A stretch of 64,000 nt of DNA from Candidatus Aenigmatarchaeota archaeon (GTDB lineage Archaea > Aenigmatarchaeota > Aenigmatarchaeia > PWEA01 > JACQIF01): NCBI GenBank assembly GCA_016432325.1, contig CP066684.1:62001-126000 (forward strand), given 5' to 3'. Within the stretch, counting starts at the first letter, position 1. Each line of letters starts with the position of its first letter. The notes under the pieces are model-generated. The model was not told where the DNA came from. It saw nothing but the letters and a program-made list of their open reading frames with translations, and did not search any database. This document shows, in pieces, positions 39,766 to 57,019 of this stretch. Both the position numbers and the translations under genes were made by a program.

Positions 39766-40839
39766 ATGCGTCCGAAGGGAGTCTCGCCTGTTATTGCGTC
39801 CATAATCCTCGTTCTGATAGCGATAGCCTCAGGGGCCGCTTTCCTGACTTTCACTGGAAGACTCGCCGGGCAGTCGCAGGCCGCGGGAGAAGAACAGACT
39901 GTGCGAGCAGTGGAACTCACGGCCACCACATTCACCATAGGCTCTGTGAAAGACCAGCGCATTTTCGTAACGAACACAGGCGGCGCGGATATCGGCACCA
40001 ACAGCCTCGACGTGCGCATCGACGACACGCGCGTCAACTATACGCAGGACGAGACGATAGAAAAGGGCGGCTCCGGTACGATAACGCTTGCCGGCTTGTG
40101 GAGGTTCGGTCTTGGAGAGCATACGCTGAAGGTTTCTGGAGCGGCCTACTCGGTGACGAAACAAATCAGAATCGTGCCCGCGGACGGGCGCGTGCTGGAT
40201 TTGCGTTTTGAGGAAGGTTCAGGCACGGTCGCCAACGATTTGAGCGGCAACGGCAATACAGGAACGCTGACCAACGAACCGGCATGGACGAAAAGCACGC
40301 CTTCTCGGAGCTCGCAGAACGCGCTCGGATTTGACGGGAACAACGACTATGTCAGCATTCCTGACAGCCAGCTGTTCAACATAACGTCGATAGATTTCAC
40401 GATAGAAGGCTGGGCGTACGTGCCTGCGGTCGGCGCAAACGGCTACGCAATATCCAAGGGCGAGTCGGGCTACTCCCCGCCGGCGACCAGCATGTGGTAC
40501 GTGTACGTAACAGAGAATGGGCCGAGCCTGAGCAGGCGCGCATTCGGGGCGGGCAGCGACGAGAGCATAGCAGGCCCCACCGTGTTGCATGGCATAGTCG
40601 GCAAGTGGTTCCACTTCTCCATCTCCCGCCAAGGAAGCACGTACACGCTGTACCAGAACGGAGTCACTACCGGCACCGCCTCGACAGCCAACGCGCCTTA
40701 CAGCAACACGCAGCCGCTCTGGATAGGCGCCAGAAAACACGCCGGCACGACCTACGCGTTCGAGGGGACGTTAGACGAGATTCGTATCTACAACCGCGCG
40801 TACACTCCAGAACAGCTCTACGTAATGGAAGAAGTCTGA
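39766..40839 (+). CDS. Pilin-anchored LamG-domain surface protein
   Basis: A 357-residue protein. The N-terminus MRPKG-VSPVIASIILVLIAIASG is an archaeal class III (prepilin) signal, cleaved after Gly5. Residues about 40-140 form a beta-sandwich (FVTNTGGADIGTNSLDVRID). Residues about 145-357 form a LamG/concanavalin-like domain (DLRFEEGSGTVANDLSGNGNTGTL ... GTLDEIRIYNRAYTPEQL). ATG 39766 is about 26 nt from CTTAATAAT, so the mRNA is likely leaderless. Probably displayed on or as a pilus to bind glycans or another cell; that role is inference. Confidence 0.88.
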   Translation: MRPKGVSPVIASIILVLIAIASGAAFLTFTGRLAGQSQAAGEEQTVRAVELTATTFTIGSVKDQRIFVTNTGGADIGTNSLDVRIDDTRVNYTQDETIEKGGSGTITLAGLWRFGLGEHTLKVSGAAYSVTKQIRIVPADGRVLDLRFEEGSGTVANDLSGNGNTGTLTNEPAWTKSTPSRSSQNALGFDGNNDYVSIPDSQLFNITSIDFTIEGWAYVPAVGANGYAISKGESGYSPPATSMWYVYVTENGPSLSRRAFGAGSDESIAGPTVLHGIVGKWFHFSISRQGSTYTLYQNGVTTGTASTANAPYSNTQPLWIGARKHAGTTYAFEGTLDEIRIYNRAYTPEQLYVMEEV

Positions 40840-40868
40840 TTACTTTATGAATAGTTCAAAGAAAGTTT

Positions 40869-40882
40869 GAAACCGCCGTTTC
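40869..40882. repeat. GAAAC/GTTTC hairpin between convergent genes
   Basis: Arms GAAAC (40869-40873) and GTTTC (40878-40882) enclose CGCC. It lies between the ends of the LamG gene (plus) and the coiled-coil gene (minus), so it may help transcript termination. Same core as the upstream-located hairpins. Confidence 0.55.
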
Positions 40883-40883
40883 C

Positions 40884-41657
40884 TTACTTCTTGCCTTTCT
40901 TCTCGGTCTTGACGCCTTCCACGATGCGCGCCAGTTCGCGCACGTTGTCCGTCAGCGCCGGCAGGAAGTCCTTGAACGCGCGTTCCACAGAACTGACGCG
41001 TCCTTCCAACGACTGCAAAGATTCGCTGGTTTCGGTCAACAGCGTCTTCATCTCCGCCTTCTCCGTGTCTTGATTATCCATCATCTCGTTGAGCTTCCCT
41101 TCCAGAGAGTCCATCCTCTCCATCGATGCGCCGTAGAGGCGGTCCAGTTCCGCGAGATGCGCTTCGACGTCTTTCCACTTCTCGTTGATTACCTCTTCGA
41201 TAAGCTCTTCGAGAGCGACCTCCTCGTGCGCTGTCATTTCGACAACGCCTGCGCCTGACGGAAGCTCCTCGAGCTCTCTGGGATACTGTTCCTGAGGCAT
41301 CTGTATGCCGAAATCGTCAGGAGGCGTCTGCGCCTGCGGCGCGGGCGGTGGCAGAGGCCCTTGCGGAGGAGCAGGCATCCTCTGCATCTGTAGAGGAGGA
41401 CCCTGAACGCGCGGCATTGGAGGAGGGGAAGGCATGCGCAGTGCTTGCTGAGGCGGCGCCACGGGTTGCTGAATAGCGGGCTGCGGCGCAACGTCGCCGC
41501 CGACGGTGAACTTCAAGACGCGGTTTAGCGCCTTCGCAACCTGTTCGTTGGAAAATCCTTGTGACCGTAAGGTCGTTATTATCTCGCGCTCGCTGCGGCC
41601 TTCAGACGCGAGTCTCTGGACCTCTTCGACCGGCACACGCTCTTCCTGCTGTTCCAT
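40884..41657 (-). CDS. UBA-like, Pro-rich, coiled-coil protein
   Basis: A 257-residue soluble protein with three parts. Residues 1-50 look like a UBA/CUE-type three-helix motif (GRSEREIITTLRSQGFSNEQVAKALNRVLKF). Residues about 55-115 are rich in Pro, Gln and Met. Residues about 135-250 are coiled coil (LEELIEEVINEKWKDVEAHLAELDRLY ... SLEGRVSSVERAFKDF). No membrane segment. It is paired with the coiled-coil gene at 41788 and divergent from the pilus genes, so it may be a cytoplasmic pilus accessory, in the way ArlC/D/E proteins serve archaella. This is inference. Confidence 0.75.
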   Translation of the reverse strand: MEQQEERVPVEEVQRLASEGRSEREIITTLRSQGFSNEQVAKALNRVLKFTVGGDVAPQPAIQQPVAPPQQALRMPSPPPMPRVQGPPLQMQRMPAPPQGPLPPPAPQAQTPPDDFGIQMPQEQYPRELEELPSGAGVVEMTAHEEVALEELIEEVINEKWKDVEAHLAELDRLYGASMERMDSLEGKLNEMMDNQDTEKAEMKTLLTETSESLQSLEGRVSSVERAFKDFLPALTDNVRELARIVEGVKTEKKGKK

Positions 41658-41684
41658 TTACTGGTCCCTCCTCGCCTTTCCGAG

Positions 41685-41771: not shown

Positions 41772-41787
41772 CGGTAAATCCATTTAA

Positions 41788-42186
41788 TCACTTTTTCGGT
41801 TTGGGACGGTCGGCCAACTCTTCCCTTACAATCGCTTTTACCTCTGTTTGCGTCGCATAGTGGGTGCGCAGGGGGCTGAGCAGGTCTATGTAGCTCTTGA
41901 ATTCCTCGAGATCCGAGCGAAGCGAGACCTTGTTCAAGAACTTCTTCGTGTTGGATACCTCTGTTTCCAGTTTCAAAATCTTGGTATTTAAATCTTCCAG
42001 AGCCTGCTCGAGCGCGCCGGCGCGCGTGCGCATCTCCTCGGTTCGCTTGAGGGAGGTGGTCTCGACGCTCATCTGTTTGGCTTCCATGCTGCGCGCAATC
42101 TCCTCGAGGTTGCGTATGCGGCGCATAGCCTCCTGCAGGACGCGGACGACTTCCCCAAAAGCCTCTTCGGCCGTGCGGGCGGCCAT
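41788..42186 (-). CDS. Coiled-coil protein, unknown
   Basis: A 132-residue protein predicted as nearly continuous coiled coil (VVRVLQEAMRRIRNLEEIARSMEAKQ; ALEQALEDLNTKILKLETEVSNTKKFL), ending in a proline/lysine tail. A stretch of 21 nt around the ribosome binding site and start (GAGGAGGGACC, then GTAAATGG) is repeated with one mismatch before the next gene at 41657. The two genes probably form an operon. Function not recognised; a pilus accessory role is possible. Confidence 0.75.
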   Translation of the reverse strand: MAARTAEEAFGEVVRVLQEAMRRIRNLEEIARSMEAKQMSVETTSLKRTEEMRTRAGALEQALEDLNTKILKLETEVSNTKKFLNKVSLRSDLEEFKSYIDLLSPLRTHYATQTEVKAIVREELADRPKPKK

Positions 42187-42221
42187 TTACCGGTCCCTCC
42201 TCATGCTTCTAATAGGTAAAT

Positions 42222-42239: not shown

Positions 42240-42365
42240 GCATGTCCTTCCCATGTAATGTTCTTTAACCCGCCATAAAAAGGTTCTAAAAGGTTTAACG
42301 CGCGGCGCGGTACGCTTAAAGCAACAGCTTTAAAGGTTAATTAGCCGTTGTGCGAAAATCAACAT

Positions 42366-44006
42366 ATGCGTCTCAAGGGCATCTCGGGCCTTATGGTTGC
42401 CATCTTCCTGACGCTGATAGCCGTAGGACTGGCCTTCGCTTTCCTTGTCTTCGGTCGTTCAACTCAGGAGACCTTCGAAAAGGAGGTAGGCGGAGGAGTG
42501 GAAGGGCAGATAAGCTCTCTGCAGAGCGGGTTGGCAATAGCGAACGTCAACGCGAACAACGTCACTGTGAAGAACACCGGTCGCACGAACCTCGACGTCT
42601 CTAAGATTGACGTGCTTCTGGACGGGAAAAAGGCGTCGACGTCCGCGACAGCTGCCACGATTGTTCCGGGCGGCACTGCGGTCCTAACGTTGACGGGTTT
42701 TGTTCCTGGTGTGCATGCAGTTCGTGTGACAGGACCCGGAGGCGTCGGAGACGAAGGCGACTTCGGAGTCGCACCGTCTGGCGTCGTCGCGCTGTGGGAT
42801 TTTGAAGACGAAGACGCGAATCCGGACGATTCGGTCGGGACGAACAACGGCAGACTCAACGGTTCGACCGTGCTGCTCTTGCACTTCGACGAGGGCGCCG
42901 GAACAAAGGCTTACGACTCGACAAACTACAAGAACGACGGCACGTTTGTGAATAATGCTCTTTGGGGAGCCGGAGTGTCCGGCAACGGCGTGAAGCTCGA
43001 CGGCGTCGCCGCCAGCATTACGGTGCCGAATTCGCCTTCAGTAAACAATATTGGACTGTTCACAACAGAGGCGTGGTTCAGGTGGGACGCCCAAGGAGTC
43101 TCTCAGGTTCTCGTAACAAAATCAGACGCCCATCTCTACATAAGCGGCGCAAACGTGCTGAGCTCGTACTTCGGGGGATCCCCGTGCGCTTCCGGCGTCT
43201 CAATATCCAGAGGAGCGTGGTACCATAGCGCCGTAACTTTTGACGGCACCAACGTGAGGATTTACGTCAACGGGGACCTCAAGGCCACGTGCGCGCGGAC
43301 AGGCAACACAGGCACCGCGAACCTATTCGTCGGGCAGAACGGAATAGGCGGCCAGTTTTTCAACGGCACAATAGACGAGGTCGCGATACATGGGCGTGCA
43401 CTGTCTGCGGACGAAGTTGGTTCGCACTACGACGCGAAGCGCGCGCTGTTCTCCGAATACGTCAAGGGCTTCGCAGGAACGGCCGTGCGCTTTGACGGGG
43501 TTAATGATGATGTGGAAGTGCCCAAATCTGCCGCGCTCGATCCGGGCGCGCAGGTCAGCCTTGAAACGTGGATAAAGAGCGATCCGTCGAATCCCATGAA
43601 CACGTGCTGCCAGGGTCTTGTATCGACGGACTTCTACAACATCGGCGTGTCGACCGGCGGCGTTTATTTCGCCATAAGCTCGAACAGCGGAGCCAGCTAC
43701 CCCTTCACCGGCACGGTCGCGGTCTCCTCGGGCGTGTGGCACCATATCGTCGGAACCTATGACGGCACGGCTGTGCGGCTGTACGTTGACGGCGCGCAGG
43801 CGGCGAGCGCTCCGGCCTCTGGCGCGGTTTCGCCGATGATGGCCAACAGTTTCCTTACCGTGGCGTCCGAGGACGGTAGGACAGCATGCGGCGCTCAGTG
43901 CATAGGCGTCCGCTACTTCAGGGGCGACGTGCAATACGCCGCGGTCTACAATCGCGCCCTGAGTGCGCAGGAGATAAAATCCATATACGATGCATCCACG
44001 GCTTGA
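42366..44006 (+). CDS. Pilin-anchored protein with two LamG domains
   Basis: A 546-residue surface protein. MRLKG-ISGLMVAIFLTLIAVGLAFAFLVF is a prepilin-type signal with membrane helix. A beta-sandwich (VTVKNTGRTNLDVSKIDVLLDGK) follows to about residue 135. Two LamG-like domains occupy about 160-365 and 370-546; both end in a conserved element (DEVAIHGRALSADEV and AAVYNRALSAQEI). Cys pairs in each domain may form disulfides. ATG 42366 replaces the longer TTG option because it begins the signal. Likely a glycan- or cell-binding pilus component (inference). Confidence 0.88.
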   Translation: MRLKGISGLMVAIFLTLIAVGLAFAFLVFGRSTQETFEKEVGGGVEGQISSLQSGLAIANVNANNVTVKNTGRTNLDVSKIDVLLDGKKASTSATAATIVPGGTAVLTLTGFVPGVHAVRVTGPGGVGDEGDFGVAPSGVVALWDFEDEDANPDDSVGTNNGRLNGSTVLLLHFDEGAGTKAYDSTNYKNDGTFVNNALWGAGVSGNGVKLDGVAASITVPNSPSVNNIGLFTTEAWFRWDAQGVSQVLVTKSDAHLYISGANVLSSYFGGSPCASGVSISRGAWYHSAVTFDGTNVRIYVNGDLKATCARTGNTGTANLFVGQNGIGGQFFNGTIDEVAIHGRALSADEVGSHYDAKRALFSEYVKGFAGTAVRFDGVNDDVEVPKSAALDPGAQVSLETWIKSDPSNPMNTCCQGLVSTDFYNIGVSTGGVYFAISSNSGASYPFTGTVAVSSGVWHHIVGTYDGTAVRLYVDGAQAASAPASGAVSPMMANSFLTVASEDGRTACGAQCIGVRYFRGDVQYAAVYNRALSAQEIKSIYDASTA

Positions 44007-44049: not shown

Positions 44050-46311
44050 ATGGCAGACGCCGTCCCCGAAGCCCCGCCGAGATACGAGCTAAAAGACACC
44101 ACGCTGCGCGTGCGGCCTGCAGGACTTCTGTACGAGTCTGGCGTTGAGGACTCTGATGCGTGCATGGCGCAGGTCGTGGACGCGCTGGCGAAGAACAAGA
44201 GCGCGCAGAGCGTTGCGGTCGTGGGAACGCGCGAGTACGAGTACAGCCTTGAAGAGACGCAGATGCTCAAGGATGTCGCGCGCGCCCTTGAAGAGATAAT
44301 CCGCGGGGCGTATCTCAGCGTCCACACGCTCGGAGAGTACAGAGACTACGTCGCTGACGACTTTGCGTACGTGCAAGCGCTCGTGATGACGAAGCTCTTG
44401 GGCGACCCTCTGGGCGTCTACGTCGACCTCAAGCGCCGCACCCGCCACATCAACGTCCGCGCGCGTTCCGTGGAAGGCAAGCGAACGGAGGCGTACAACT
44501 CCCTTATGAACAACGTCATCGTCCCTGTCCTGCAAATATTGGAGAACACGTCTCTCGTGCGCAACGCGAAACCGTTCCTCACCGGCTACAAGATAGGCGA
44601 TCGATCGGCGTACCGCCAGCTTTTCCACCCGACGGTGCGGCCCGTATTCATGCAGACGCGCTACCAGACGGAGATGCCGGAAGGCGCGGAGATAGTGGAT
44701 CGCTATGCGCTTCGGGACGGCGTTGAAGTTGAAATCTACCGCGTACGCGGCTCCGTGCGCTACGTGTACCACGCGATTCCGCCTGAGTTCCGCCTGAGCG
44801 AGGATCAGTATACGATTCTGGACGCGGCCCGGCGCTATATGATAGAACACAAGCCGCGGGAGATCGAATTCGCAGACCCCGAACGCATGCGGGAGATCTT
44901 CGCGAACATAGGCCGCGATCTCGTGACGGACATAGCAAACCAAATGGGACTGTCGCTGACACGCGATGAGACGGAACGCCTGACGTCCATACTGACGCGC
45001 TACACGGCGGGTCTTGGAGTCCTGGAGATACTGCTCTCCGACGAGAAGATACAAGACGTCTACATCAATTCGCCCATCGGGCAAAATCCGATATACGTTT
45101 TCCATCAGGACTATCAGGAGTGCGTAACGAACTTCATACCGACGCAGGAAGACGCGGAGTCCTGGGCCACGCGCTTCCGCCTCGTCTCCGGACGCCCGCT
45201 GGACGAAGCAAATCCCGTTCTCGATACGGAAGTGGTCGTGCCGGGAGGACGCGCAAGGGTCGCGATAGTGACGCGCACGCTTTCGCCGCAGGGGCTCGGG
45301 TTCTCGCTGCGCAGGCACAGGGACGATCCGTGGACCTACCCGCTGTTCATACACCCGAAGACCAGATATTTCAACGAGTTGTTCGCCGGACTCATGTCTT
45401 TCATCGTAGACTATTCGCGCACGTTCTTGATAGCGGGCACGCGTTCGTCGGGCAAGACGTCGCTGCTCAACGCCTCGCTGCTCGAGGTGATGCGCAAATA
45501 CCGCATCGTCACTGTGGAAGACACGCTTGAAATTCCTGTCAACCGCCTGCGCGCTCTTGGCTACAACGTGGAGTCATTGAAGTCGCGTTCTGTGATAACG
45601 CAGGTCGAGACCGAATTGCCGGCGGACGAGGCGATACGCACGTCGCTGCGTCTCGGCGACTCTGTCCTCATAATAGGAGAAGTGCGTTCACTCGAAGCGA
45701 AAGCCCTGTACGAGGCGATGCGCATCGGCGCTTTGGCAAATACGGTCGCAGGAACGATACACGGCGACTCTCCTTACGGCGTGTTTGATCGCGTCGTGAA
45801 CGACCTCGGCGTTCCTCCCACCTCGTTCAAGGCGACGGACCTCATAATAATATGCAACATGATGAAGAGCGCCGACGGCATCCACCGCTTCCGTCGCGTG
45901 ACGAGCGTGACGGAAGTGCGCAAGCACTGGAAGAACGACCCCCAGGAAGAGGGAGGGTTCGTGCCTCTCTTGCAGTACTCTTCCAAGGAAGACATTCTCA
46001 AGCCGACGGACACGCTCCTGAACGGCGAGTCTTTCATACTCAACGAAGTCGCGTCGTCCGTGCGCGAGTGGTCGGGCAACTGGCAGGACGTCTGGGAGAA
46101 CATCCTCTTGCGCGGCAGGATAAAGAAAGCAATAACAGAATACGCGATCGCGAGCGGCAAGCCGGACTTCATGGAAGCGCCCTTCGTCGTCGAGTCGAAC
46201 GACATCTTTCACCTCGTTTCCGAGCAGCTGCGCGCGGAAACAGGCTCGATACCGGCGGAGCGCGCGTACAACGCGTGGTACGACTGGTTCAAGGCGCGCG
46301 TGAAGTACTAG
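44050..46311 (+). CDS. Type IV pilus/secretion ATPase (PilB/ArlI/TadA superfamily)
   Basis: Motor ATPase (753 aa) of an archaeal type IV pilus-like system. The N-terminal half (about residues 1-330) is a large specific domain. The VirB11-like core starts near LTRYTAGLGVLEILLSDEKIQDVYIN. Walker A is GTRSSGKTS near residue 462, the Asp box lies in RIVTVEDTLEIPV, and Walker B is LIIGEVRSLEAKALYEAM near residue 543. A His box occurs in AGTIHGDSPYGVFDRV. AGGAG lies upstream of ATG 44050. The platform protein is at 46728. Confidence 0.93.
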   Translation: MADAVPEAPPRYELKDTTLRVRPAGLLYESGVEDSDACMAQVVDALAKNKSAQSVAVVGTREYEYSLEETQMLKDVARALEEIIRGAYLSVHTLGEYRDYVADDFAYVQALVMTKLLGDPLGVYVDLKRRTRHINVRARSVEGKRTEAYNSLMNNVIVPVLQILENTSLVRNAKPFLTGYKIGDRSAYRQLFHPTVRPVFMQTRYQTEMPEGAEIVDRYALRDGVEVEIYRVRGSVRYVYHAIPPEFRLSEDQYTILDAARRYMIEHKPREIEFADPERMREIFANIGRDLVTDIANQMGLSLTRDETERLTSILTRYTAGLGVLEILLSDEKIQDVYINSPIGQNPIYVFHQDYQECVTNFIPTQEDAESWATRFRLVSGRPLDEANPVLDTEVVVPGGRARVAIVTRTLSPQGLGFSLRRHRDDPWTYPLFIHPKTRYFNELFAGLMSFIVDYSRTFLIAGTRSSGKTSLLNASLLEVMRKYRIVTVEDTLEIPVNRLRALGYNVESLKSRSVITQVETELPADEAIRTSLRLGDSVLIIGEVRSLEAKALYEAMRIGALANTVAGTIHGDSPYGVFDRVVNDLGVPPTSFKATDLIIICNMMKSADGIHRFRRVTSVTEVRKHWKNDPQEEGGFVPLLQYSSKEDILKPTDTLLNGESFILNEVASSVREWSGNWQDVWENILLRGRIKKAITEYAIASGKPDFMEAPFVVESNDIFHLVSEQLRAETGSIPAERAYNAWYDWFKARVKY

Positions 46312-46604
46312 CGCACTCCAATCCCGAACATCACACGCAGTTCTTCCGAAGGCTGCCACGGCGGGTCGAAGACCACTTCCACGTTTACGTCGCTGACGCC
46401 TTCCAGAGCGCGCACGCGTTTCTTCATGTCGTCCACGAGAGCGGGTCCGTACGGGCAGAAAGGAGTCGTGAAGGTCATCCTGATGTAGACGGAGCCGTTT
46501 TCGACGCGCACTTCATAGACCAGATTGAGCGTTATGATGTCCATTCCTATTTCAGGGTCCTTGACCTGTTTCAGGACGTTCGTGACCTCTTCTTTGGTCG
46601 GCAT
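46308..46604 (-). CDS. MIP18/DUF59 family protein (Fe-S assembly type)
   Basis: A 98-residue DUF59 protein, related to SufT, PaaD and MIP18, which act in iron-sulfur cluster maturation. Motifs: VLKQVKDPEIGMDIITLNLVYEVRVENG and MTFTTPFCPYGPALVDDMKKRV with the conserved Cys, then DPPWQPSEE. It is placed on the opposite strand between the ATPase and the platform gene and overlaps the ATPase end by 4 nt, so it interrupts the pilus operon without obvious functional link. Confidence 0.9.
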   Translation of the reverse strand: MPTKEEVTNVLKQVKDPEIGMDIITLNLVYEVRVENGSVYIRMTFTTPFCPYGPALVDDMKKRVRALEGVSDVNVEVVFDPPWQPSEELRVMFGIGVR

Positions 46605-46727: not shown

Positions 46728-48809
46728 ATGGCCGGCGATAAGAAGAAAGGACCTTCTCCGGAAGAGATAAGACGGGAAGAGATTACGCGAATCCTGCGGG
46801 AAGAACGCATGCGGCTGCCCGTGCGCGAGTCGCAAGCCGCTCCTAACACGGCGTTTACGAGTAGGGAGTACCAGACGTTCATGGCGGAGGAGCGCTTCAG
46901 GGAGAAGCCGACCCTGTACGAGCGCGCAGCGCGCCTCGCCGGCCGTCTGAATCTGGAGCCCGACGCCGATACGAAAAAGCAGATGGAAGAGAACATAAAG
47001 TTCGCGCATCTTGACGTTACGCCTGCCGGAGCGTTCTCCCTTGCAATAGTAACGCCGATGCTGATAGCGGTCTTCGCGACTCTCGTGTTCTTCCTGCGGG
47101 TCGTCGGACTCACGGAGACGATGACTCTGTTCATGGGTTCGATTATCGCGTTTTACCATCTCTACAACTATCCGAAGAGCGCGGCCAAGATATTCCGCGT
47201 CAAGGCGGCGTCCGAAATAATACTTGCAGTAATCTACATGGTCATCTACATGCGTTCGTCTCCGAACCTCGAGGGCGCGATTAGATACGCGGCCGTCAAC
47301 CTGACGGGCCCGTTGGCGTACGATCTTCGCAAGCTCCTGTGGGACGTCGAAACGGGAAGGTACGCGACGATGGAGGACGCGCTCGATACGTACCTCTTGA
47401 GGTGGAAGACCAACGAAGAGTTTATAGAGTCGATAAATCTGATTCGCAATTCGATGGAGCAGCCGGAGTCGCGGCGCCACGCGGTTTTGGACGAGGCGGT
47501 GAACGTCGCTCTTACAGGAACGCGGGAGAAGATGCAGAAGTATTCGCAGTCTCTGAGAATGCCTGTGACGCTCATCCACACGATGGGCATCATCCTTCCG
47601 ATACTCATACTGGTTATGTTCCCTGTTCTGATTTTGTTCCTGGGAAAGCAGCTGAACCCGTGGGTTCTCGTGATCGGTTACGACGTCGTGTTGCCGATAA
47701 TAATCTACCTGCTGATTATGCGCGTGATGGAGAGCAGGCCCGTGGGGTTCTCCGTTCCTGACGTGTCTCTGCATCCGAAGTTCACGCCTCTCGGCAAGGT
47801 GAAAATCGGGGGGAAGCTCTACCAGATGTGGCCGTTCACAGCGGCGCTGACGTTCGCGCTCGTCGGGATATGCGCGTATTTCCTGGTGCCCGTGTACGAC
47901 AAGATAACCCTTGAGGCCCTAGGCCTTTCTGTGGCCGTGACCTGGGCGCTGGGCATCGGCATGATGGTCCACTTCCTGACCGGCACATCAGGACTGCTCA
48001 AGATACGCGGAGAGATAAAGAAGATTCAGGATGAGTTCGGCGAAGCACTGTTCCGTCTCGGAAACACGCTCTCTCTTGGAGCGCCTCTTGAAAAGGCGAT
48101 AGAAGACACCGTGCAGAAGTCCGCGGACCTGTCGATATCCGAGCTCTTCAGGCGCGTATTGAACAACGTGCGCCAGGGCCAGCTAAGCTTCGAGGCCGCG
48201 TTCTTCGACAAGCGCTACGGCGCGATATGGGACTATCCTTCGAAACTGATAATCAACGTGATGCACATCGTGATTGAAGCGACAAAGAAAGGGGTGCGCA
48301 TCGGCGCGAACTCGGCGATCGCAATTTCAAAATACATCCGCCAGATCCACGCCATAGACGAGGATCTGCGCGACATGCTTTCCGAGGCGACGACGAGCAT
48401 GCGATTCATGTCCGCGTTCCTCGGGCCTATGATAGCCGGCGTCACGGTCACGATGGCCGGCGTGATGATGCTGATATTCCAGCAGCTCGGCGCGAGTATC
48501 GCGGGCCTGCAGAACACGAACGTCCCGGGCTTCAGCCAGCTGCTGATAGGAGGCTGGGGAGAGTCCGTGGCGCAGATGCCCATCGCGGTCTTCCAACTCG
48601 TTGTTGGAATCTACATCCTTGAGATGATTTACCTCCTGTCGGTTCTGGAGATAGGAATAGAGAGCGGACCCGACGACATCGTGCAGATGCGCCACACCGC
48701 GGCGTGGTCTATATTAATAGGACTTTTGGTATACAGTTTCAGCCTCGTGATAACATGGTCCATCTTCGGAGCGTCTATACAATCCTTGATAACAGGAGGC
48801 GCGCTTTAG
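46728..48809 (+). CDS. Pilus/secretion platform membrane protein with two T2SSF domains
   Basis: Inner-membrane platform (693 aa) of the TadC/ArlJ family. After a charged cytoplasmic 95 residues, membrane pairs (TPAGAFSLAIVTPMLIAVFATLVFFL; TLFMGSIIAFYHLY) flank a first T2SSF domain (SSPNLEGAIRYAAVNLTGPLAYDLRKLLWDVETG). A middle membrane block follows (MGIILPILILVMFPVLILFLG). A second T2SSF domain (FRLGNTLSLGAPLEKAIEDTV) precedes more spans near the C-terminus. It partners with the ATPase at 44050. The last 55 nt overlap the possible start of the first microprotein. Confidence 0.92.
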   Translation: MAGDKKKGPSPEEIRREEITRILREERMRLPVRESQAAPNTAFTSREYQTFMAEERFREKPTLYERAARLAGRLNLEPDADTKKQMEENIKFAHLDVTPAGAFSLAIVTPMLIAVFATLVFFLRVVGLTETMTLFMGSIIAFYHLYNYPKSAAKIFRVKAASEIILAVIYMVIYMRSSPNLEGAIRYAAVNLTGPLAYDLRKLLWDVETGRYATMEDALDTYLLRWKTNEEFIESINLIRNSMEQPESRRHAVLDEAVNVALTGTREKMQKYSQSLRMPVTLIHTMGIILPILILVMFPVLILFLGKQLNPWVLVIGYDVVLPIIIYLLIMRVMESRPVGFSVPDVSLHPKFTPLGKVKIGGKLYQMWPFTAALTFALVGICAYFLVPVYDKITLEALGLSVAVTWALGIGMMVHFLTGTSGLLKIRGEIKKIQDEFGEALFRLGNTLSLGAPLEKAIEDTVQKSADLSISELFRRVLNNVRQGQLSFEAAFFDKRYGAIWDYPSKLIINVMHIVIEATKKGVRIGANSAIAISKYIRQIHAIDEDLRDMLSEATTSMRFMSAFLGPMIAGVTVTMAGVMMLIFQQLGASIAGLQNTNVPGFSQLLIGGWGESVAQMPIAVFQLVVGIYILEMIYLLSVLEIGIESGPDDIVQMRHTAAWSILIGLLVYSFSLVITWSIFGASIQSLITGGAL

Positions 48810-49587: not shown

Positions 49588-49757
49588 TGGACTCCAGAGG
49601 AGACGTGCAGTACTTCATGCTGGCCATAGTATCTTTCGTTATAATCCTTCTCGTGGCGATATCCCTGCTGATACTGTTCGGCGGTGACGCGGGCAAGCAG
49701 ATGGAATGCGCCATTGGATTGTTCCAGGCCACGGGCTGCCCGACGCAGGTGACGTAA
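49587..49757 (+). CDS. Microprotein 5, pilin-like single span
   Basis: A 56-residue protein. MDSRG-DVQYFMLAIVSFVIILLVAISLLILF looks like a short class III leader followed by the pilin helix. The end holds two cysteines (MECAIGLFQATGCPTQVT). Both its start and stop overlap neighbouring genes by one base, so translation is probably coupled along the array. Confidence 0.7.
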   Translation: MDSRGDVQYFMLAIVSFVIILLVAISLLILFGGDAGKQMECAIGLFQATGCPTQVT

Positions 49758-49921
49758 TGGTGTTCTCGGCGGCAGAAAGCAAGTTCGCGCTCGTGATAGG
49801 GATAGTCGTGATGCTCATAGTCATCGCGGGAATCTTCATCTTCCTTTCCACGCAGCTCTCGCCCGAGTTCGGAACGTACGTCAATAACCTGAACTTCAAC
49901 TTCGAACTGCGGCACAGATAG
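49757..49921 (+). CDS. Microprotein 6, single span
   Basis: A 54-residue protein. FALVIGIVVMLIVIAGIFIFL is the helix, preceded by MVFSAAESK and followed by a short aromatic/Asn-rich outer end (YVNNLNFNFELRHR). It is the last of six consecutive tiny membrane genes; the next gene has its own promoter 70 nt downstream. Confidence 0.65.
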   Translation: MVFSAAESKFALVIGIVVMLIVIAGIFIFLSTQLSPEFGTYVNNLNFNFELRHR

Positions 49922-50004: not shown

Positions 50005-50454
50005 ATGGCCGCTCTCAAGTACATAATAATAGCTGGTCTTCTCGGCGCCGCGCTTGCCGTGGCGGGCTTCGCGGCGGCGACAGGCGGCTTCGAGAGGGAG
50101 GCGGAGCGCAGCGCGCTAATCGCGGCTTTCCCGATAACAGAACGCATAACCTCGGGCGTGAACCTGATGCTCTCTCAGGAGGAAACGGGTTTCATCGAGG
50201 TCGCTCTGCCGCCGATAAGATGCGAGATTGCGTTCAACGAGCCTTATGTCGAAACGACCGTACGCAGAGGCGATATTTCTCAATCGTACGGCCTGTTCGT
50301 TTTCGGTGGCGTCAATCTGAACGTGAATCCGATAGAATGCCCGACAGAGGCCGAGCTTAAGGACGGCAAGAAGGTGCGCGTCAATATTACGCGCATTGAC
50401 GTCGGCGGGCCAGTGTTCGTCAAGAGAGTTGTCCTGGAGGGGACGGTCTTATGA
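50005..50454 (+). CDS. Anchored extracellular protein of pilus locus
   Basis: A 149-residue protein with an N-terminal membrane helix (YIIIAGLLGAALAVAGFAAA) and an outer beta-rich domain of about 110 residues with two cysteines (PIRCEIAF, NPIECPTE). CTATTAAAT at 49974-49982 is about 27 nt before ATG 50005, indicating a leaderless mRNA that starts a second transcription unit of the locus. Not recognised; a minor pilin-like role is inference. Confidence 0.72.
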   Translation: MAALKYIIIAGLLGAALAVAGFAAATGGFEREAERSALIAAFPITERITSGVNLMLSQEETGFIEVALPPIRCEIAFNEPYVETTVRRGDISQSYGLFVFGGVNLNVNPIECPTEAELKDGKKVRVNITRIDVGGPVFVKRVVLEGTVL

Positions 50455-51224
50455 AAGGCGCTGCTCTATCAAAGCCGATCTTCCTCTTTTTCGCAATTCT
50501 GTTCTTCGTGATAATGATGGTCTTTCTCATAGCCAGCTTCAACATCACGCCTACTGAAATCAATACCGCATCGAAAGAGATCGTTGCCGTTGACATACTT
50601 CACAGGCTGACGTCGTCGGATGCGTGCCTGAGTACGGGAGAGGCAGGAATACTTGACGCCGTCAAACTTCAGGACGCGGTCAACGGCGGCAGGGAACATA
50701 GTTGCGCGTACGTTCCTAATGCGGGCTACCACGTGCACGTCACAGACCTTCGCACGGATGACGAGTGGGCTTTCGGTTACGACACACCCGACGACTCTAT
50801 AGAAACGAAACACGCAGTCGCAATACAATACAACGACGGTTCTGTGAATCCCGGAGAGCTCACGTTCGCGTACTCGTACAGGGACGCGGATCTGCTTTTG
50901 TTCATAACAGGCCAGGCTTCGCAGACGTTCTACAGAGGGGACAATTACGACAACAGGAGAAAGGCCGAGTTCACGATAGGAAAGAGAGAGACCTTCAGCA
51001 GAAACGGCGTGTACAACGAAGTCTCGACTCTCTGCATGACGCGTCAAGACGAGGAGGAGAGATGCAAGGACCTGCCTGCCGGAGTGCGTGTCATTGTCGA
51101 TGGAGTGTTGCCGGCATACCCTTCTGTTCTTGAACAGACCAAAAACAAAATAATAACGTGGAGGGAAGGAGACGTGGTCCATGTGGTCGTCTGCGGCGTC
51201 ACAAGCTGCGGAACATACGGTTGA
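50451..51224 (+). CDS. Anchored extracellular protein of pilus locus
   Basis: A 257-residue protein. MKGAALSKPIFLFFAILFFVIMMVFLIASF is a short lead plus membrane helix. The outer domain (about 220 residues) has several cysteines (SDACLSTG, EHSCAYV, STLCMTRQDEEERC, VVVCGVTSC). The start overlaps the previous stop by 4 nt. This layout resembles minor pseudopilins with large head domains, but no family is recognised. Confidence 0.72.
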   Translation: MKGAALSKPIFLFFAILFFVIMMVFLIASFNITPTEINTASKEIVAVDILHRLTSSDACLSTGEAGILDAVKLQDAVNGGREHSCAYVPNAGYHVHVTDLRTDDEWAFGYDTPDDSIETKHAVAIQYNDGSVNPGELTFAYSYRDADLLLFITGQASQTFYRGDNYDNRRKAEFTIGKRETFSRNGVYNEVSTLCMTRQDEEERCKDLPAGVRVIVDGVLPAYPSVLEQTKNKIITWREGDVVHVVVCGVTSCGTYG

Positions 51225-51228
51225 TATC

Positions 51229-51678
51229 ATGAAAGGACAGATAGTTACGAATCTCGTGATGATAGCGATACTGGCGATAATGGCAGTCGCCTCCATAGGC
51301 TTCTTCATATGTGTGAACGTCGGCGACGCTTGCAGCCTCGCCAAGAAGGGCGGCTTTGAGAGCGAGGTGACGGAGAACTTCCTGACAGACTCGCAGGCGC
51401 AGTCGGAGCTCAACGCATATCTTGCCGTTAAAGACATGGACGATAACGTCGCGACTCTCTGGCTGCTTTACAAGACTACAGGCGACGCCGGCTACAAGGA
51501 CCGCGCCAAGACCGTTTATGAAACGATGTTCGCCAACAGGCAGACGCGTCTTTTCGTCGATAGAGAATCGTTTGCGACGCGAGACTGTTCTCCTGAATTG
51601 AACGACCCGTCGGCCACGCGCAAGATTCCGCTGCCGTCGGGCCAGCAGATGTCAATGACGCTGGGGTTGTGTCGATGA
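51229..51678 (+). CDS. Pilin-like anchored protein
   Basis: A 149-residue protein starting MKG-QIVTNLVMIAILAIMAVASIGFFI, a minimal prepilin-like leader and helix. The outer part is helical (VTENFLTDSQAQSELNAYLAVKDMDDNVATLWLLYKTTGD), with Cys at both ends (NVGDACSLA, TRDCSPE, LGLC). ATG 51229 follows the previous stop by 4 nt. Not recognised. Confidence 0.72.
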   Translation: MKGQIVTNLVMIAILAIMAVASIGFFICVNVGDACSLAKKGGFESEVTENFLTDSQAQSELNAYLAVKDMDDNVATLWLLYKTTGDAGYKDRAKTVYETMFANRQTRLFVDRESFATRDCSPELNDPSATRKIPLPSGQQMSMTLGLCR

Positions 51679-53981
51679 GTAAAGCGCAGATAGCAGAGAT
51701 GACGTGGATAGCCATAGGCGGCATACTGATGGTCGCCCTCGTGTTGGGTTTGACCGTTTCTGCGATTCTGGCCGGCCAGGCAGGCGACGCAGAGGACGAG
51801 GCGATAGGAGTCAAGACCGCGCTCGACTACTCCGACGATTACGGCTCGCTCGCGGCTCGTTCGTCGCTGCACGGCTCGCTATACGAGAACGGTTTGAACG
51901 GCGGCTTCTACACCGCCGCGCCGCCTGCAGGCACGGAAACGATAGGCGGCGTTGCGTACGTCTACTGGAAGAGGGGAGACACTACAGGAGTCCCATCCGC
52001 AGGCACTATCACAAAAGAACTGCATGCGGGAACGCAAGCCCTTTTTTCAAGCCACATTTCAAATGAGGGCGTTGAACTGCGAACTCCTCCGGGAGCCGCA
52101 GTCGCGCTCGATCTGGACACGTCAGGAGTTTCTGGGGAGTTCCGTGCTGAAATCGTAGACCGCGGCAAGGCGCCTGCGATAAGGATAGGAGGCGACGGCC
52201 GCGTCGCCGAAACAGAGAGCGTCGCAGCCCGTTACCTGCGGCTGCGCAGGGTCGGCGAAATACTCACGCAGCACTCCTCGGGTCTCATCGATTCGCGCGT
52301 CCACGATGCCGTTCGGAGCGTTCAAGACCACCAGACGAACAGCGAGAGCACATGCGGACCTTCTTCATGTGACGCGTCGCTCAACTCCTGCGGCGGCCAG
52401 GACCGCTTGTGCCCGGGTAACCAGATAAGCGGAGACCCGCACGCGGCCGCGCAGAGCGCCGTTACGTCATTACAGAATGACTTGAACGCGCGGTTCGCGT
52501 CAGAGAACATCCGCTTCGAGATTTCAGTCGTGAAAAACGCCGTGAACAAAGTTCCGATAACGCATGTCGAGGACAACAGCGGCTCTGGAACGTACTATCG
52601 TTGGCATACGACTGAGACAGAGCCGGTCGAGACGTGCAGACCCGCAACGACAGCCGACAAATGCGCCAGCATAAAGGGCGCCGGCTGCTTGACGAGAAGT
52701 AAGTGTACTACGGAATCAGGCAAGCCGACGAGGACGCGCGAGTGCACAGGAGGGAAGGTGTGTTGCCTGCTGCCGCCAGAGACGTCGCCTCGCGTGTGCA
52801 CGACAGCTCCGGGATCCACGACTTCGGACTGTTCCGCGAACGCGGCATACGCATGCCCCTGCGCGTACTGCGCGAACGCGCATTATGATATGGCCTATCA
52901 GTACGACTACACAGTTCGCGTCAGCGTGATAGATTCGAATGTTCAACTACTGACAAAAGACGGCCTGCAGAATCCGAAGATGGTCTTCCTTGTGGAAGGT
53001 TTGCACGTAGACGACAACGCGTGCGGCAGCGACGGCCACGACTGCGGCGCGCCGTTTGCGTCCACCACGCCTCTGGAGTCGGAGACCGTGAACTCCATCG
53101 ATTGGCTTACAGGCGTCTCGGAGACGCCTACGTCTTCTGGAGAGATTCCTCCGGAACTCGGCGGTCCTGAAGACGCTGTGTGGTTCGCTTACAACAGCGA
53201 GTCTTACGCGTGCACTGACAACATCCCGCTCTCTGCCGCATACTTCCACGGCAACCGCACGGCGTTCTACGAAATCGGCTGGAGCTTCAACAACGACCAT
53301 CCGAAGACGGCGAACGTGACGGCCACAGTCGCCCGTTTCGACGCTCATTCCTGCAACAATTTCGCTTCCTCGACAGACATCCGCACAGCCGCGTTCCATC
53401 TTGGTTCAGCGCGTGCGGGCACCGCGAACTCGGGGCTCTACACGATACGGATGAGCGCCTCTGATCTCAACGCATACAGGGACGGCTACGTTGTGAAGGT
53501 CGCGGTGGATTTGTACGACTCGGATACAGGCGCGCGCCTGCTGCAGAACACTACAACAGGATACTACGCCGTCTTGCCTGTCCCGAATTCGGAGTACAAC
53601 GTCAGGTGGACCAACCACTCGGACGGCGTCGCGCACTTCTACAAGGGCTTCACGCAGTCAGGGACATGGAGCAGCGCTGCTGCTAGGTGCGATGCGGACG
53701 AGGCCAGCCTTGCAACAATAACAAACGACGAGGAGAACACGCGAGCGTTCCTCGCCGCAGGCGTGCCCTCGAGCGGCCGATATTGGATTGGGGCCACGGA
53801 TACGGCTGCAGAAGGAACGTGGATATGGGTTACAGGAGAGCTCTGGAGCTTCACGAAATGGGCAGGCGGGCCGAGCGCCGAGGACTGCGCCGCCCTGATA
53901 GGTTCTACGACCACGCAGGCCAGCTACTGGGAATCTCTGGGTTGCGGTGTGCCCCAGACGGGCTTCGTCTGCGAAAAGTAA
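51675..53981 (+). CDS. Large anchored protein with C-terminal C-type-lectin domain
   Basis: A 768-residue protein. The N-terminal helix (MTWIAIGGILMVALVLGLTVSAIL) anchors it. A long outer region follows, with a Cys-rich stretch at about residues 220-400 (CGPSSCDASLNSCGGQDRLC; KVCCLLPPE; CPCAYCANAHY). The last 115 residues are a C-type-lectin fold: CDADEASLATITNDEENTRAF, RYWIGATDTAAEGTWIWVTGE, WAGGPSAEDCAALI, GCGVPQTGFVCEK. The EPN/QPD calcium-sugar triad is not seen, so ligand type is uncertain. It ends the transcription unit from 50005. Confidence 0.85.
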   Translation: MSKAQIAEMTWIAIGGILMVALVLGLTVSAILAGQAGDAEDEAIGVKTALDYSDDYGSLAARSSLHGSLYENGLNGGFYTAAPPAGTETIGGVAYVYWKRGDTTGVPSAGTITKELHAGTQALFSSHISNEGVELRTPPGAAVALDLDTSGVSGEFRAEIVDRGKAPAIRIGGDGRVAETESVAARYLRLRRVGEILTQHSSGLIDSRVHDAVRSVQDHQTNSESTCGPSSCDASLNSCGGQDRLCPGNQISGDPHAAAQSAVTSLQNDLNARFASENIRFEISVVKNAVNKVPITHVEDNSGSGTYYRWHTTETEPVETCRPATTADKCASIKGAGCLTRSKCTTESGKPTRTRECTGGKVCCLLPPETSPRVCTTAPGSTTSDCSANAAYACPCAYCANAHYDMAYQYDYTVRVSVIDSNVQLLTKDGLQNPKMVFLVEGLHVDDNACGSDGHDCGAPFASTTPLESETVNSIDWLTGVSETPTSSGEIPPELGGPEDAVWFAYNSESYACTDNIPLSAAYFHGNRTAFYEIGWSFNNDHPKTANVTATVARFDAHSCNNFASSTDIRTAAFHLGSARAGTANSGLYTIRMSASDLNAYRDGYVVKVAVDLYDSDTGARLLQNTTTGYYAVLPVPNSEYNVRWTNHSDGVAHFYKGFTQSGTWSSAAARCDADEASLATITNDEENTRAFLAAGVPSSGRYWIGATDTAAEGTWIWVTGELWSFTKWAGGPSAEDCAALIGSTTTQASYWESLGCGVPQTGFVCEK

Positions 53982-54326
53982 TCACTTCGAGGACTCCACT
54001 TCCCTTGTCCTTCTTTCCAGAAGCTTCCTGCAGTCTTCCGTGGTGTCGCCTATTTCATTTATGAGCGTCTTTTGTGAAGGCGTCGCTGTGAATAAGACTT
54101 TTCTCAGAAGAGTGTCGTAAGTATTCAGCCACGTTAAACACCGTTTCGCCTTTGAAATGAATCCCCTCCTAATCTCTTTGGGTTCCCACGCTCTTGAGGC
54201 CTTTTCCAGATTCTCGTGGAACTCCCTCTCGTTCTCGCGGAATGACTCGACGCAACTGTCTATGTCTGTCTCCTTTTCTATGCCCTTTGAAGACGGTTTG
54301 CGTCCGAAGATGTTAAAAAGTCCCAT
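53982..54326 (-). CDS. Unknown soluble protein within pilus locus
   Basis: A 114-residue, highly charged, probably helical protein (VESFRENEREFHENLEKASRAWEPKEIRRGF; TTEDCRKLLERRTREV), convergent with and directly adjacent to the lectin gene. ATG 54326 lies about 27 nt from the palindromic TATA at 54348-54357, so it is likely leaderless. Not recognised. Confidence 0.6.
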   Translation of the reverse strand: MGLFNIFGRKPSSKGIEKETDIDSCVESFRENEREFHENLEKASRAWEPKEIRRGFISKAKRCLTWLNTYDTLLRKVLFTATPSQKTLINEIGDTTEDCRKLLERRTREVESSK

Positions 54327-54385: not shown

Positions 54386-56074
54386 ATGGCCAAGGAGATA
54401 CTCGCGGCAATGATAGTCGCAATAATCCTCATGCTGCTCGCCGTGACGTCAGGCTCGCTGTTCGTTGCGGAGGGCCAGGCCAAGGGCACGGCCTCGCTGA
54501 CCATCGCCAACGAGGCTACGTGCGCGCTCGCTCCGTGGCTGCAGGAGTGCAAGGAACTTGAAGAGAAGAAGGCGCGGGAGGAGGCGACAAGCGACTTGCA
54601 GAACGTGTTTATTGCGGCCGCGACGGACGCTGATAACGTGGAGCGAGACGCGTACACATATTCTTATGCAAAAGGTGAGACAATTTCAACAGGCGTCATC
54701 AACGACGATGCGGCAATCAAGACGGGCTCTGCCGTGACGGTTGTGCCTTACGGCACGAACAGACTCTTTGTTGCGTATGCGAGGAAAAGTCAGAGCAACA
54801 CGAACGACGAGGGTTATTATTATAGCGCGTACACCGTGAATCAGGATGGTAGCATATCCCCTTCGGGAAACGGTGTGATAGACGATAGATGCGATATGCA
54901 ATCCGAGCCTGCTATGGACGCGGCCGCTTTCGATAGCAACTCCGACGGCACCATAGACGGCATACTCGTGGGGCTGACGTGCAACGGCGACGGGTACGAT
55001 AACAGCGACCAGAACGATAACAATGACGAGTATACTTTCTACCGATACGTCATCCAAGAGGACGGTTCTCTGACAAGGCAGGACGCGGGCTCCGACAGGG
55101 TACCATCTTTCGTCGCTGAGAATGCGGCACAGCAGCATATTTACATAAAACCTTCCATTACGATGACGGCGTTTAGTTCTGCAGGCGGCGCGCCGAACAA
55201 GGTCTTTATAGCATATGCACGGGAGGCGGATGGCGGAGGAAAGCCCATAGGATCGCCAGGAGACTACTATGCCTACAGAATCTACGATCCATCCAACCCG
55301 CCACCTGCCACGGCGAACGGCTGGCAGGCGGGATGGAGGAACCTACATACAGGGAAGACCAACGATCAGGCCGCAGGCTCCAAGCCCTGCAGCTTGGGCA
55401 GCGGAAGTACGATAGACTCCGCGCTTTACACAGATAACGCCGCCAATTCCGTAATAGTCGCTTATGCGTGCATATCGGACAACAACAAGGACGGCGGGAA
55501 CGACAACTACGAATACAGAATATACAGCAGCGGCGCAGAGAACATTCAGGGCGTAAAGCCGTTGTCAGATGCCCGACAGATAGAAACGTCTCTAGATTTC
55601 ACAGCCGCCCCCGAAGATCGCGCTAACAGAGTCCATACGATAGCGGTTGCGAGAATCGGACATAGAAAATCCTTTGTCGTTTATACGGAAACGATAAGTA
55701 ATCGTAATGGCAACGGTCCCGGACGCTACAAATATCGGGTTATCGATAACGGAGTGCTGACGCCAGAAGGTGACGCGCCAGACCTGCACGGTGGGGACTG
55801 CCACATATGGGATCCAAACGAGGATCTCTCCGGAGCGGGACCAAAAAAACAGCGAGGCGGAGCCTCGGTAAGCCTGTCGTATGACGTGCAGGGAAATAAG
55901 GTCGTCGCAATATACTCTTGTGATTCTGACGGCAAAGGTTCGCAGGACTCCTACAGCTACGCAATCTATAATGTCGCCACAAATGTTATAGAGAAGAGAG
56001 GCTATGCCATAACTCCTGCACAATTGGACAACGGCCCGTCAGTCGCGAGCGTCTACGTGCCAGGAGGCGGCTAG
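54386..56074 (+). CDS. Anchored propeller-like repeat protein
   Basis: A 562-residue protein with an N-terminal membrane helix (AAMIVAIILMLLAVTSGSLFV). The outer part holds six repeats of about 65-85 residues, starting near residues 126, 192, 272, 355, 428 and 505. Each has a strand like LFVAYAR or VIVAYAC, an Asp/Asn/Gly-rich loop and a Y-x-Y-x-I/V strand. This suggests a beta-propeller with possible calcium loops (DSNSDGTIDG). Base use is more A/T-rich than the pilus genes around it, hinting at separate origin. Likely a surface adhesin (inference). Confidence 0.75.
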   Translation: MAKEILAAMIVAIILMLLAVTSGSLFVAEGQAKGTASLTIANEATCALAPWLQECKELEEKKAREEATSDLQNVFIAAATDADNVERDAYTYSYAKGETISTGVINDDAAIKTGSAVTVVPYGTNRLFVAYARKSQSNTNDEGYYYSAYTVNQDGSISPSGNGVIDDRCDMQSEPAMDAAAFDSNSDGTIDGILVGLTCNGDGYDNSDQNDNNDEYTFYRYVIQEDGSLTRQDAGSDRVPSFVAENAAQQHIYIKPSITMTAFSSAGGAPNKVFIAYAREADGGGKPIGSPGDYYAYRIYDPSNPPPATANGWQAGWRNLHTGKTNDQAAGSKPCSLGSGSTIDSALYTDNAANSVIVAYACISDNNKDGGNDNYEYRIYSSGAENIQGVKPLSDARQIETSLDFTAAPEDRANRVHTIAVARIGHRKSFVVYTETISNRNGNGPGRYKYRVIDNGVLTPEGDAPDLHGGDCHIWDPNEDLSGAGPKKQRGGASVSLSYDVQGNKVVAIYSCDSDGKGSQDSYSYAIYNVATNVIEKRGYAITPAQLDNGPSVASVYVPGGG

Positions 56075-56380
56075 ATGTCCCGCAAAGGACTCGAACTGCC
56101 GACCAACACTCTCATAGTCATGGCCGTCGCAATCGTGGTACTGCTGGTCATGATAGTGTTCTTCACCAGCTCGTCGCAAACGTCCACCGGCGCCACAGAA
56201 CTGCAGAACCGCTTCCGTTCGGAATGCGTGACGTTCGTCAGCAGGAACTGTTGCGTGTCCGGGACGGACGTCACGTCCGGCACGTGCGACGCGTCTGCCG
56301 TGGCGCCGAGCGCAGGACTGGCCATCGGAACGACGGACGACACAAAGATAAAAGAGGCATGCTGCATAATCAAGCCATAG
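56075..56380 (+). CDS. Six-cysteine pilin A
   Basis: A 101-residue pilin-like protein. MSRKG-LELPTNTLIVMAVAIVVLLVMIVFF gives a clear prepilin site and helix. The outer domain carries six cysteines arranged C, CC, C, CC (SEC, NCC, GTC, ACC). The gene follows the propeller gene without a gap. It is the first of three tandem paralogues with the same cysteine pattern. Confidence 0.85.
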   Translation: MSRKGLELPTNTLIVMAVAIVVLLVMIVFFTSSSQTSTGATELQNRFRSECVTFVSRNCCVSGTDVTSGTCDASAVAPSAGLAIGTTDDTKIKEACCIIKP

Positions 56381-56388
56381 GTGTTTGG

Positions 56389-56682
56389 ATGTCAAAGAAA
56401 GGAATCGAACTGCCGGTGAACGCGCTGATAATCATGTTCCTGGCCGTGGTAGTTCTTGCCGGAGTCATCGCGATATACACGGGTGTCTGGCAGCCGTCCC
56501 AAAAGACGACGACGCAGGCCTCGGATTTCAACGCCGAATGCGCGAAGTACTCGGCTATTGGATGCTGTGGTGACGATACGCTGTCTGGATGCTCCACGCA
56601 GAAGAGCCAGGTCGTGAGCAAAGCATCGACGTTGGGAATAACGAGCGCGGCAGACGCCGTCAAGCGCTGCTGCGGCGAGTGA
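56389..56682 (+). CDS. Six-cysteine pilin B
   Basis: A 97-residue pilin-like protein. MSKKG-IELPVNALIIMFLAVVVLAGVIAIY is a prepilin site and helix, followed by six cysteines in the order C, CC, C, CC (AEC, GCC, SGC, RCC). It resembles pilins A and C. ATG 56389 is chosen because it begins the leader; the frame extends upstream without other signals. Confidence 0.85.
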   Translation: MSKKGIELPVNALIIMFLAVVVLAGVIAIYTGVWQPSQKTTTQASDFNAECAKYSAIGCCGDDTLSGCSTQKSQVVSKASTLGITSAADAVKRCCGE

Positions 56683-56686
56683 TACC

Positions 56687-57019
56687 ATGGACAACAAGGG
56701 AGCTGAGATAGCGGTCAATGCCGTGATAGTCATGGTGCTCGCGGTGCTGGTTCTGGGAGCGGCCATAGGAATCTTCACAGGAGTCTGGAACCCGGGCAAG
56801 AAGACCACAGAAGGCATAGGCGACTTCAGCTCCGCGTGCGGCTCTTTCGCGGCAGCCGGATGCTGCAGGGACCCGCCTGCGGGCGGCTCTCTGCCTGCGA
56901 CGTGTACGGACACCGCAACAGCCGGCACGCTGGCCAAGAAGCTGCTCGATGCGGCAGGCGGCTTGGGTCTTTCTGCGACAGATTTCCCCGCGGCAAAGGA
57001 AAGGTGCTGCAAGGGCTAG
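56687..57019 (+). CDS. Six-cysteine pilin C
   Basis: A 110-residue pilin-like protein. MDNKG-AEIAVNAVIVMVLAVLVLGAAIGIF forms the leader and helix. Its outer domain again has C, CC, C, CC (SAC, GCC, ATC, RCC), with a longer Gly/Pro insert between the first CC and the third element. It ends the surface locus. Probably a major or minor filament subunit; disulfides would stiffen it. Confidence 0.85.
   Translation: MDNKGAEIAVNAVIVMVLAVLVLGAAIGIFTGVWNPGKKTTEGIGDFSSACGSFAAAGCCRDPPAGGSLPATCTDTATAGTLAKKLLDAAGGLGLSATDFPAAKERCCKG

Follow-up and report, generated by a model that had tools for sequence, protein, structure and literature searches.

A probable type IV pilus-like machine with an interchangeable outward module in an Aenigmatarchaeota archaeon

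The stretch of DNA analysed here, referred to as the window, comprises 64,000 nucleotides of a Candidatus Aenigmatarchaeota archaeon (C1:62001-126000 of genome G000, a single contig of 874,769 bp), and positions without prefix follow its numbering. Between positions 39766 and 57019 it encodes a single VirB11/ArlI-type ATPase and a single fused T2SSF double platform, together with about 15 proteins with a single transmembrane (TM) segment, mostly prepilin-like and of [KR]G type. We regard this locus as probably, if not securely, a type IV pilus-like machine in its Aenigmatarchaeota version, in which one of two proteins, O or P, carries an interchangeable outward module. On sequence grounds the P position is modular, its outer domain being of lectin type here and a cell-wall hydrolase in several relatives. 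The machine, conserved throughout the class, would be of an ordinary kind, the archaeal type IV pilus, but in an unusual form specific to the class, and the exchangeable head position is the broader finding. A previous sequence-only reading had described a pilus-type machine of a DPANN archaeon, with lectin-like heads on pilin-type stems, and this description stands; overall, its observations are partly confirmed and its interpretation as a host attachment device is partly supported.

The relatives belong to the Aenigmatarchaeota lineage, within which the genome search placed G006, G007 and G009 in the order of the window genome. Unless stated otherwise, conservation counts refer to 29 relatives' loci examined by iterated profile searches. 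The genes lie in the order A, B, C, D, E, F, G, H1-L, M, N, O, P, Q, R, S, T, U, followed downstream of U by proteasome and exosome genes:

A, 39766-40839, + strand: LamG-headed modular pilin, site KG followed by VSPVIASIILVL (PF13385, 82.5 bits)
B, 40884-41657, - strand: apparent coiled-coil cytoplasmic accessory, kept beside the motor (homologs in 20 relatives' loci)
C, 41788-42186, - strand: apparent coiled-coil cytoplasmic accessory, kept beside the motor (homologs in 21 relatives' loci)
D, 42366-44006, + strand: pilin stem carrying a pair of LamG domains, immediately upstream of the ATPase (two PF13385 stretches, 166.6 bits)
E, 44050-46311, + strand: VirB11/ArlI-type secretion ATPase (PF00437, 54.7 bits)
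F, 46308-46604, - strand: Fe-S assembly protein
G, 46728-48809, + strand: fused double T2SSF platform, 693 aa (two T2SSF stretches)
H1, 48755-48934, + strand: microprotein, site KG followed by DISIGL (sequence; G001 counterpart)
H2, 49040-49183, + strand: single-TM microprotein, 47 aa (G001 counterpart)
I, 49188-49379, + strand: single-TM microprotein, 63 aa (G001 counterpart)
J, 49381-49587, + strand: microprotein with KG site (in 7 relatives' loci; G001 counterpart)
K, 49587-49757, + strand: microprotein with RG site (G001 counterpart)
L, 49757-49921, + strand: single-TM microprotein, 54 aa (G001 counterpart)
M, 50005-50454, + strand: opening member of the M-N-O-P quartet (by position), with one N-terminal TM
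N, 50451-51224, + strand: conserved pilin-like protein, anchor of the quartet (in 18 relatives' loci)
O, 51229-51678, + strand: pilin-like, site KG followed by QIV (M23 found at this position in some relatives)
P, 51675-53981, + strand: large pilin-like protein ending in a C-type lectin domain at about 53661-53978 (PF00059, 49.9 bits)
Q, 53982-54326, - strand: weak open reading frame (ORF), weak coding signal
R, 54386-56074, + strand: N-terminal TM and tandem repeats of ~72-75 aa, possible propeller
S, 56075-56380, + strand: six-cysteine small pilin (family in 23 relatives' loci)
T, 56389-56682, + strand: six-cysteine small pilin (family in 21 relatives' loci)
U, 56687-57019, + strand: six-cysteine small pilin (family in 20 relatives' loci)

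Concerning the motor, ATPase E matches PF00437 well above the cutoff of 24.9 bits, as expected for the assembly ATPase of an archaeal type IV pilus-like system and as had been proposed from the sequence; it carries an extra N-terminal domain of ~210 aa, and its nearest solved structure is 2oap over residues 211-626. The two T2SSF stretches of G (E 3.3e-5) reach a total of 24.3 bits, narrowly missing the cutoff of 25.2. Orthologs are found in 59 of 60 relatives' genomes, and where a relative's locus contains both platform and ATPase, the two mostly adjoin, as in type IV pilus-like systems; the double platform claimed earlier is thereby corroborated. The earlier statement that a prepilin peptidase is missing holds for the window but not for the genome, which encodes a single A24 copy at C1:151095 (57 bits), consistent with such a system. 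The coiled-coil proteins B and C, proposed as cytoplasmic accessories, do look like genuine accessories of the motor, judging from their conserved neighbourhood: they recur in nearly as many loci as the ATPase itself (23 genomes), usually divergent from it. Neither has a Pfam match to ArlC/D/E, only coiled-coil similarities, and they were discarded as homologs of these proteins. F, an Fe-S assembly protein without counterpart in the relatives' loci, was ruled out as a component of the system.

The archaellum (ArlI/ArlJ) shares the homologous ATPase core (FlaI 4ii7) and the platform fold class, but E scores far below the FlaI/ArlI equivalog cutoff (NF058587, 122 vs 550 bits), and among the families searched no archaellin or ArlH/F/G matched at the locus, apart from weak matches to ArlF in the A and D stems. 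The closest known systems are the archaeal type IV pili surveyed by Makarova, Koonin and Albers in 2016 (PMC4858521), which likewise present a VirB11-family ATPase, a TadC/FlaJ-type platform, many pilins with class III signal peptides, stand-alone pilin genes, a coiled-coil accessory in some cases and adhesin-like large subunits. The present locus differs in its fused platform, its train of 40-75-aa pilins, its six-cysteine pilins and the M-N-O-P genes with swappable lectin or hydrolase heads.

Some further observations touch on the motor. At 44050-44250 the N-terminal domain of the ATPase is devoid of the cysteines (a C-L-G-C-I-Y-G-S-S type motif) present in several same-order orthologs. In most relatives 2-4 polytopic membrane proteins of 150-200 aa adjoin B and C, and their homologs in the window genome are unlinked, at C1:184738-185879 and C1:459147-460242. 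Other motor or pilin genes (secretion ATPase, T2SSF, pilins) occur in this 0.87-Mb genome at 411-426, 439-449, 482-492, 701-704 and 873-874 kb, where T2SSF, if present, is split into two separate genes.

The subunits show the corresponding pattern. Class III-type [KR]G sites precede the TM helix in A, D, H1, J, K, N, O, S, T and U, as in the subunits of type IV pilus-like systems, and P has a KA site instead, so that the at least eight prepilin-type proteins counted earlier become ten or eleven. Genes with a single N-terminal TM make up 12 of the 13 in the block downstream of the platform vs 98 of 999 genome-wide (P = 5e-12). In most relatives' loci the platform is likewise followed by a run of N-terminal-TM genes, with a median of 10 and often including 2-6 proteins of at most 82 aa, although some of these stretches end at contig ends and the gene counts per locus are approximate, since genes in relatives were called by a simple codon-usage script and not by a trained gene finder. 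The six cysteines previously noted in each of S, T and U are confirmed, and this family, found in 20-23 genomes, and N, found in 18, are recurrent elements of the loci. The six microproteins H1-L have counterparts in the same order in G001, of the same genus, and codon changes between the two number 132, 72 and 167 at codon positions 1, 2 and 3 over 287 codons. With position 2 the most conserved, the microproteins are, to judge from their codon pattern, real genes, in line with the earlier claim.

The M-N-O-P order is kept in G003, G010, G014, G033, G054 and G048. Hence, the window and six relatives hold four adjacent pilin-like genes, one of them large, an arrangement resembling the GspHIJK-like tip complex. 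For N, the structure model predicts helices at residues 4-30 and 34-55 followed by a four-strand beta-meander, with residues 4-143 best predicted and a mean predicted local distance difference test score (pLDDT) of 54 overall; the model suggests a pilin-like topology, i.e. a long N-terminal helix and then a four-stranded meander.

The main variation is found at P. Its C-terminal domain in the window matches PF00059 at 49.9 bits (E 6e-13), in agreement with the C-type lectin fold recognized by the sequence-only reading, while full-length P has no homologs in the relatives apart from lectin-domain matches in G054. The P stem is related to those of G003 and G010 (HHalign prob. 80, E 1.3e-5), which are 31% identical to each other and carry different ends; that of G003 matches Endostatin and DUF1554, families of lectin fold, just below both cutoffs. 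In G054 and G033 P contains an internal Peptidase_M23 domain (87.9 and 90.4 bits; L062:1330-3261 and L060:1267-3123, respectively), whereas P of G014 (L063:16066-17481) aligns to residues 1-342 and 522-627 of the G054 protein and lacks the M23 region, the global alignment across the join being less clean. P of G048 (L065:1905-3794) ends in an Amidase_2 domain (100.8 bits). Because the stems are related within the order only, P was ruled out as a class-wide sequence family, and its equivalence at class level rests on gene position. Direct evidence of head exchange comes from two adjacent pilin genes of G054, which share 67 of 114 stem residues yet carry a LamG head (L181:5913-6914) and a C-type lectin head (L181:6918-7676).

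Overall, pilin-type proteins with M23 or Amidase_2 lie beside the motor in eight genomes of four families, also including M23 in G115, G015 and G039 and Amidase_2 in G026 and G105. Pilin clusters away from the motor hold M23 pilin-type proteins as well (e.g. G050, G078 and G060). Among the 145 genomes of the class, M23 is found in 53 and Amidase_2 in 10, and of 35 hydrolase hits in genomes with a mapped platform, 6 fall within 15 kb downstream on the same strand vs 0.30 expected, a proximity (P = 8e-7) that should be taken as indicative since the 15-kb limit was set after some hits were known. The HxxxD and HxH catalytic motifs are intact in most M23 copies. Mur_ligase_M was undetected in 10 of the 12 genomes tested, which makes remodelling of an own murein wall an unlikely role there. 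It should also be noted that in clusters of the G050, G078 and G060 type the M23 protein directly precedes a P-like protein, with a small conserved gene, read as Alba-like, further on, and that large proteins near the G005 and G049 motor loci match Peptidase_M26_N and Peptidase_C25 (L045:18216-19196 and L054:16753-18498).

The LamG pilins A and D have a different standing. Both fit the definition of a modular pilin by Raynaud et al. (2021), a pilin N-terminus joined to an unrelated functional domain (TIGR02537, 24.2 bits, over the cutoff of 20, and LamG in A; KG and two LamG in D), as does P (KA and PF00059), and the earlier assignment of LamG to A and D is borne out. However, the genome encodes ten LamG domains (PF13385) in eight genes scattered over the contig, all eight with a pilin-type N-terminus. 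Five of these genes, A included, share 34-63% identity in the 120 residues that follow the cleavage site; the A stem is identical to that of a paralog at 547 kb in 64 of 120 positions, and D has its sibling at 821 kb (57 of 119, 48%). The A stem is Pilin_N-like (PF07790, 25.1 bits, just under the cutoff), and the LamG pilin stems in general give weak Pilin_N matches, most below cutoff, as do the pilins beside the 411-kb motor. Since the stem type of A thus also occurs beside the motor at 411-425 kb, the adjacent motor need not export A or D. They appear as members of a separate, genome-wide modular pilin set, which this or another motor could load. For TafC, an NCBIfam name matched by the LamG pilins far below cutoff, no paper was found.

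In several other genomes the LamG pilins also lie apart from the motor locus, and profiles built from the LamG domains of this genome and two lectin domains found no LamG or C-type lectin match in any sampled relative's motor locus; several of these loci are cut by contig ends, and therefore the absence of a head there is weak evidence. The proposal that the combination of LamG, lectin and propeller domains is a property of the locus does not hold, as relatives' ATPase/platform loci occur without the display domains, a finding that the earlier reading had itself named as one that would refute it. These data leave a substantial, though lesser, likelihood that A and D, possibly along with P and R, came to lie here by chance and are exported by other motors, such as those at 411, 446 and 488 kb, and that the locus itself has no adhesive function. 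The dispersal and weakly Pilin_N-like stems of the eight LamG pilins agree with this, but D and the ATPase ORF lie on one strand, 34 bp apart, and the operon slot held by P is conserved, with a P stem that has relatives within the order. As for R, the repeats seen by the sequence-only reading are real, although about seven copies are present rather than six (Y-x-Y-anchored, lag 72-75 aa, best diagonal 53 vs 43 for the 99% shuffle level). Its single-sequence structure model reaches a pLDDT of 39, and no relative was found among the 145 class genomes searched; Q has none in the sampled motor loci.

An unlikely alternative is that the motor builds no long pilus, only a short pseudopilus akin to type II secretion or bindosome systems that displays or exports surface proteins, the lectin and hydrolase domains belonging to the archaeon's own envelope. 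Archaeal bindosome-type systems are known (PMC4858521), and the many different pilin-like subunits, several of 400-1000 aa, together with the GspHIJK-like character of the quartet, fit this picture. However, the small-pilin families (S/T/U and the microproteins) recur beside the motor in most relatives, as suits a polymer body, with which a short polymer is still compatible. Equally improbable to us is a class-wide predation device that uses its hydrolase and lectin modules to attack bacteria or to feed on them: pilin-type proteins with M23 or Amidase_2 in several families, the undetected Mur ligase and the peptidoglycan degradation proposed for Woesearchaeota (PMC9723730) favor it, but most sampled motor loci, including that of the window genome, contain no hydrolase domain and M23 enzymes can act on other substrates.

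Several results also weigh against the preferred reading of a type IV pilus-like machine with an interchangeable head. The P lectin domain reads WAGGPSAEDC and YWES where the EPN/QPD and WND motifs are usually found, and because these are lacking it may not bind sugar. No sequence link was detected between the P stems of the window order and the P proteins with M23 or Amidase_2 in other families, and the M23 domains of G015 and G039 have HLD in place of HxH. In G001 the ATPase and platform lie on different contigs, with unrelated genes after the ATPase. Finally, among the matches listed by a Foldseek/VIA search with the N model there was no pilin; those listed were partial matches to ribosomal S3-like and sensor domains at Z ~5, which were treated as uninformative.

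If the locus is nevertheless a type IV pilus-like machine, the ATPase and the fused platform, aided by B and C, probably assemble a filament or short pseudopilus from prepilin-like subunits, whose processing would fall to the one A24 peptidase of the genome, encoded outside the locus. The tiny and the six-cysteine pilins probably form the filament body, and M-N-O-P would be the initiating tip complex of minor pilins, with O or P presenting the variable module. In the window genome this would be the C-type lectin domain at the end of P, and binding to another cell or surface is therefore the most likely task of the machine. For this tiny and probably host-dependent archaeon, attachment to a host is a plausible role. 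The peptidoglycan hydrolases in the P slot of relatives suggest, in turn, contact with bacterial walls and their local opening.

Pilin stems with functional C-terminal modules are also known from PilB and PilC of Streptococcus sanguinis (PMC8179133, PMC9934059), where PilC is a lectin-bearing modular minor pilin with an Ig-like domain and a concanavalin-type lectin (PMC9934059), a layout broadly like that of A and its paralogs. That system is bacterial and comprises five pilins, whereas here one genome has eight LamG pilins and relatives add hydrolase modules. Among DPANN archaea, the part of the account of Micrarchaeota Mia14 available to us (PMC5498576) describes a LamG-like expansion, partly linked to type IV pili loci, and proposes host interaction; it contains no peptidoglycan hydrolase on pilin stems, and in the window genome all eight LamG genes have a pilin-type N-terminus. 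Nanohaloarchaeota present Tad-type pili and LamG proteins (PMC9563170). Archaeal peptidoglycan hydrolases such as Woldo, with bactericidal activity demonstrated for a haloarchaeal member, include M23 domains that are prominent in Nanoarchaeota (PMC12352652), but the signal peptides reported for those enzymes are of Sec or Tat type, whereas in the present case a pilin-type protein encoded next to a pilus motor carries the enzyme domain. The main text of that survey contains no mention of pilus, pili or pilin, and that of PMC4858521 none of DPANN, M23 or peptidoglycan. Our partial literature search found no report of pilin-type proteins with hydrolase modules at an archaeal pilus locus, and the literature search yielded no paper on Aenigmatarchaeota pili or adhesins.

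Few molecular handles exist for the question of how DPANN archaea recognize and contact their partners. A conserved machine whose head position holds lectin-like domains in some genomes and cell-wall hydrolases in others offers a testable link between gene content and the type of partner, bacterial or archaeal. Such a position would also point to a way in which archaeal peptidoglycan hydrolases could be delivered, one that the survey mentioned above (PMC12352652) does not raise. More tentatively, and with the odds rather against it, the class-specific pilus may use its interchangeable tip effector slot, occupied by lectins in some lineages and by active peptidoglycan endopeptidases or amidases in others, to let a DPANN archaeon get to the wall of a bacterium, be it partner or prey, and open it locally.

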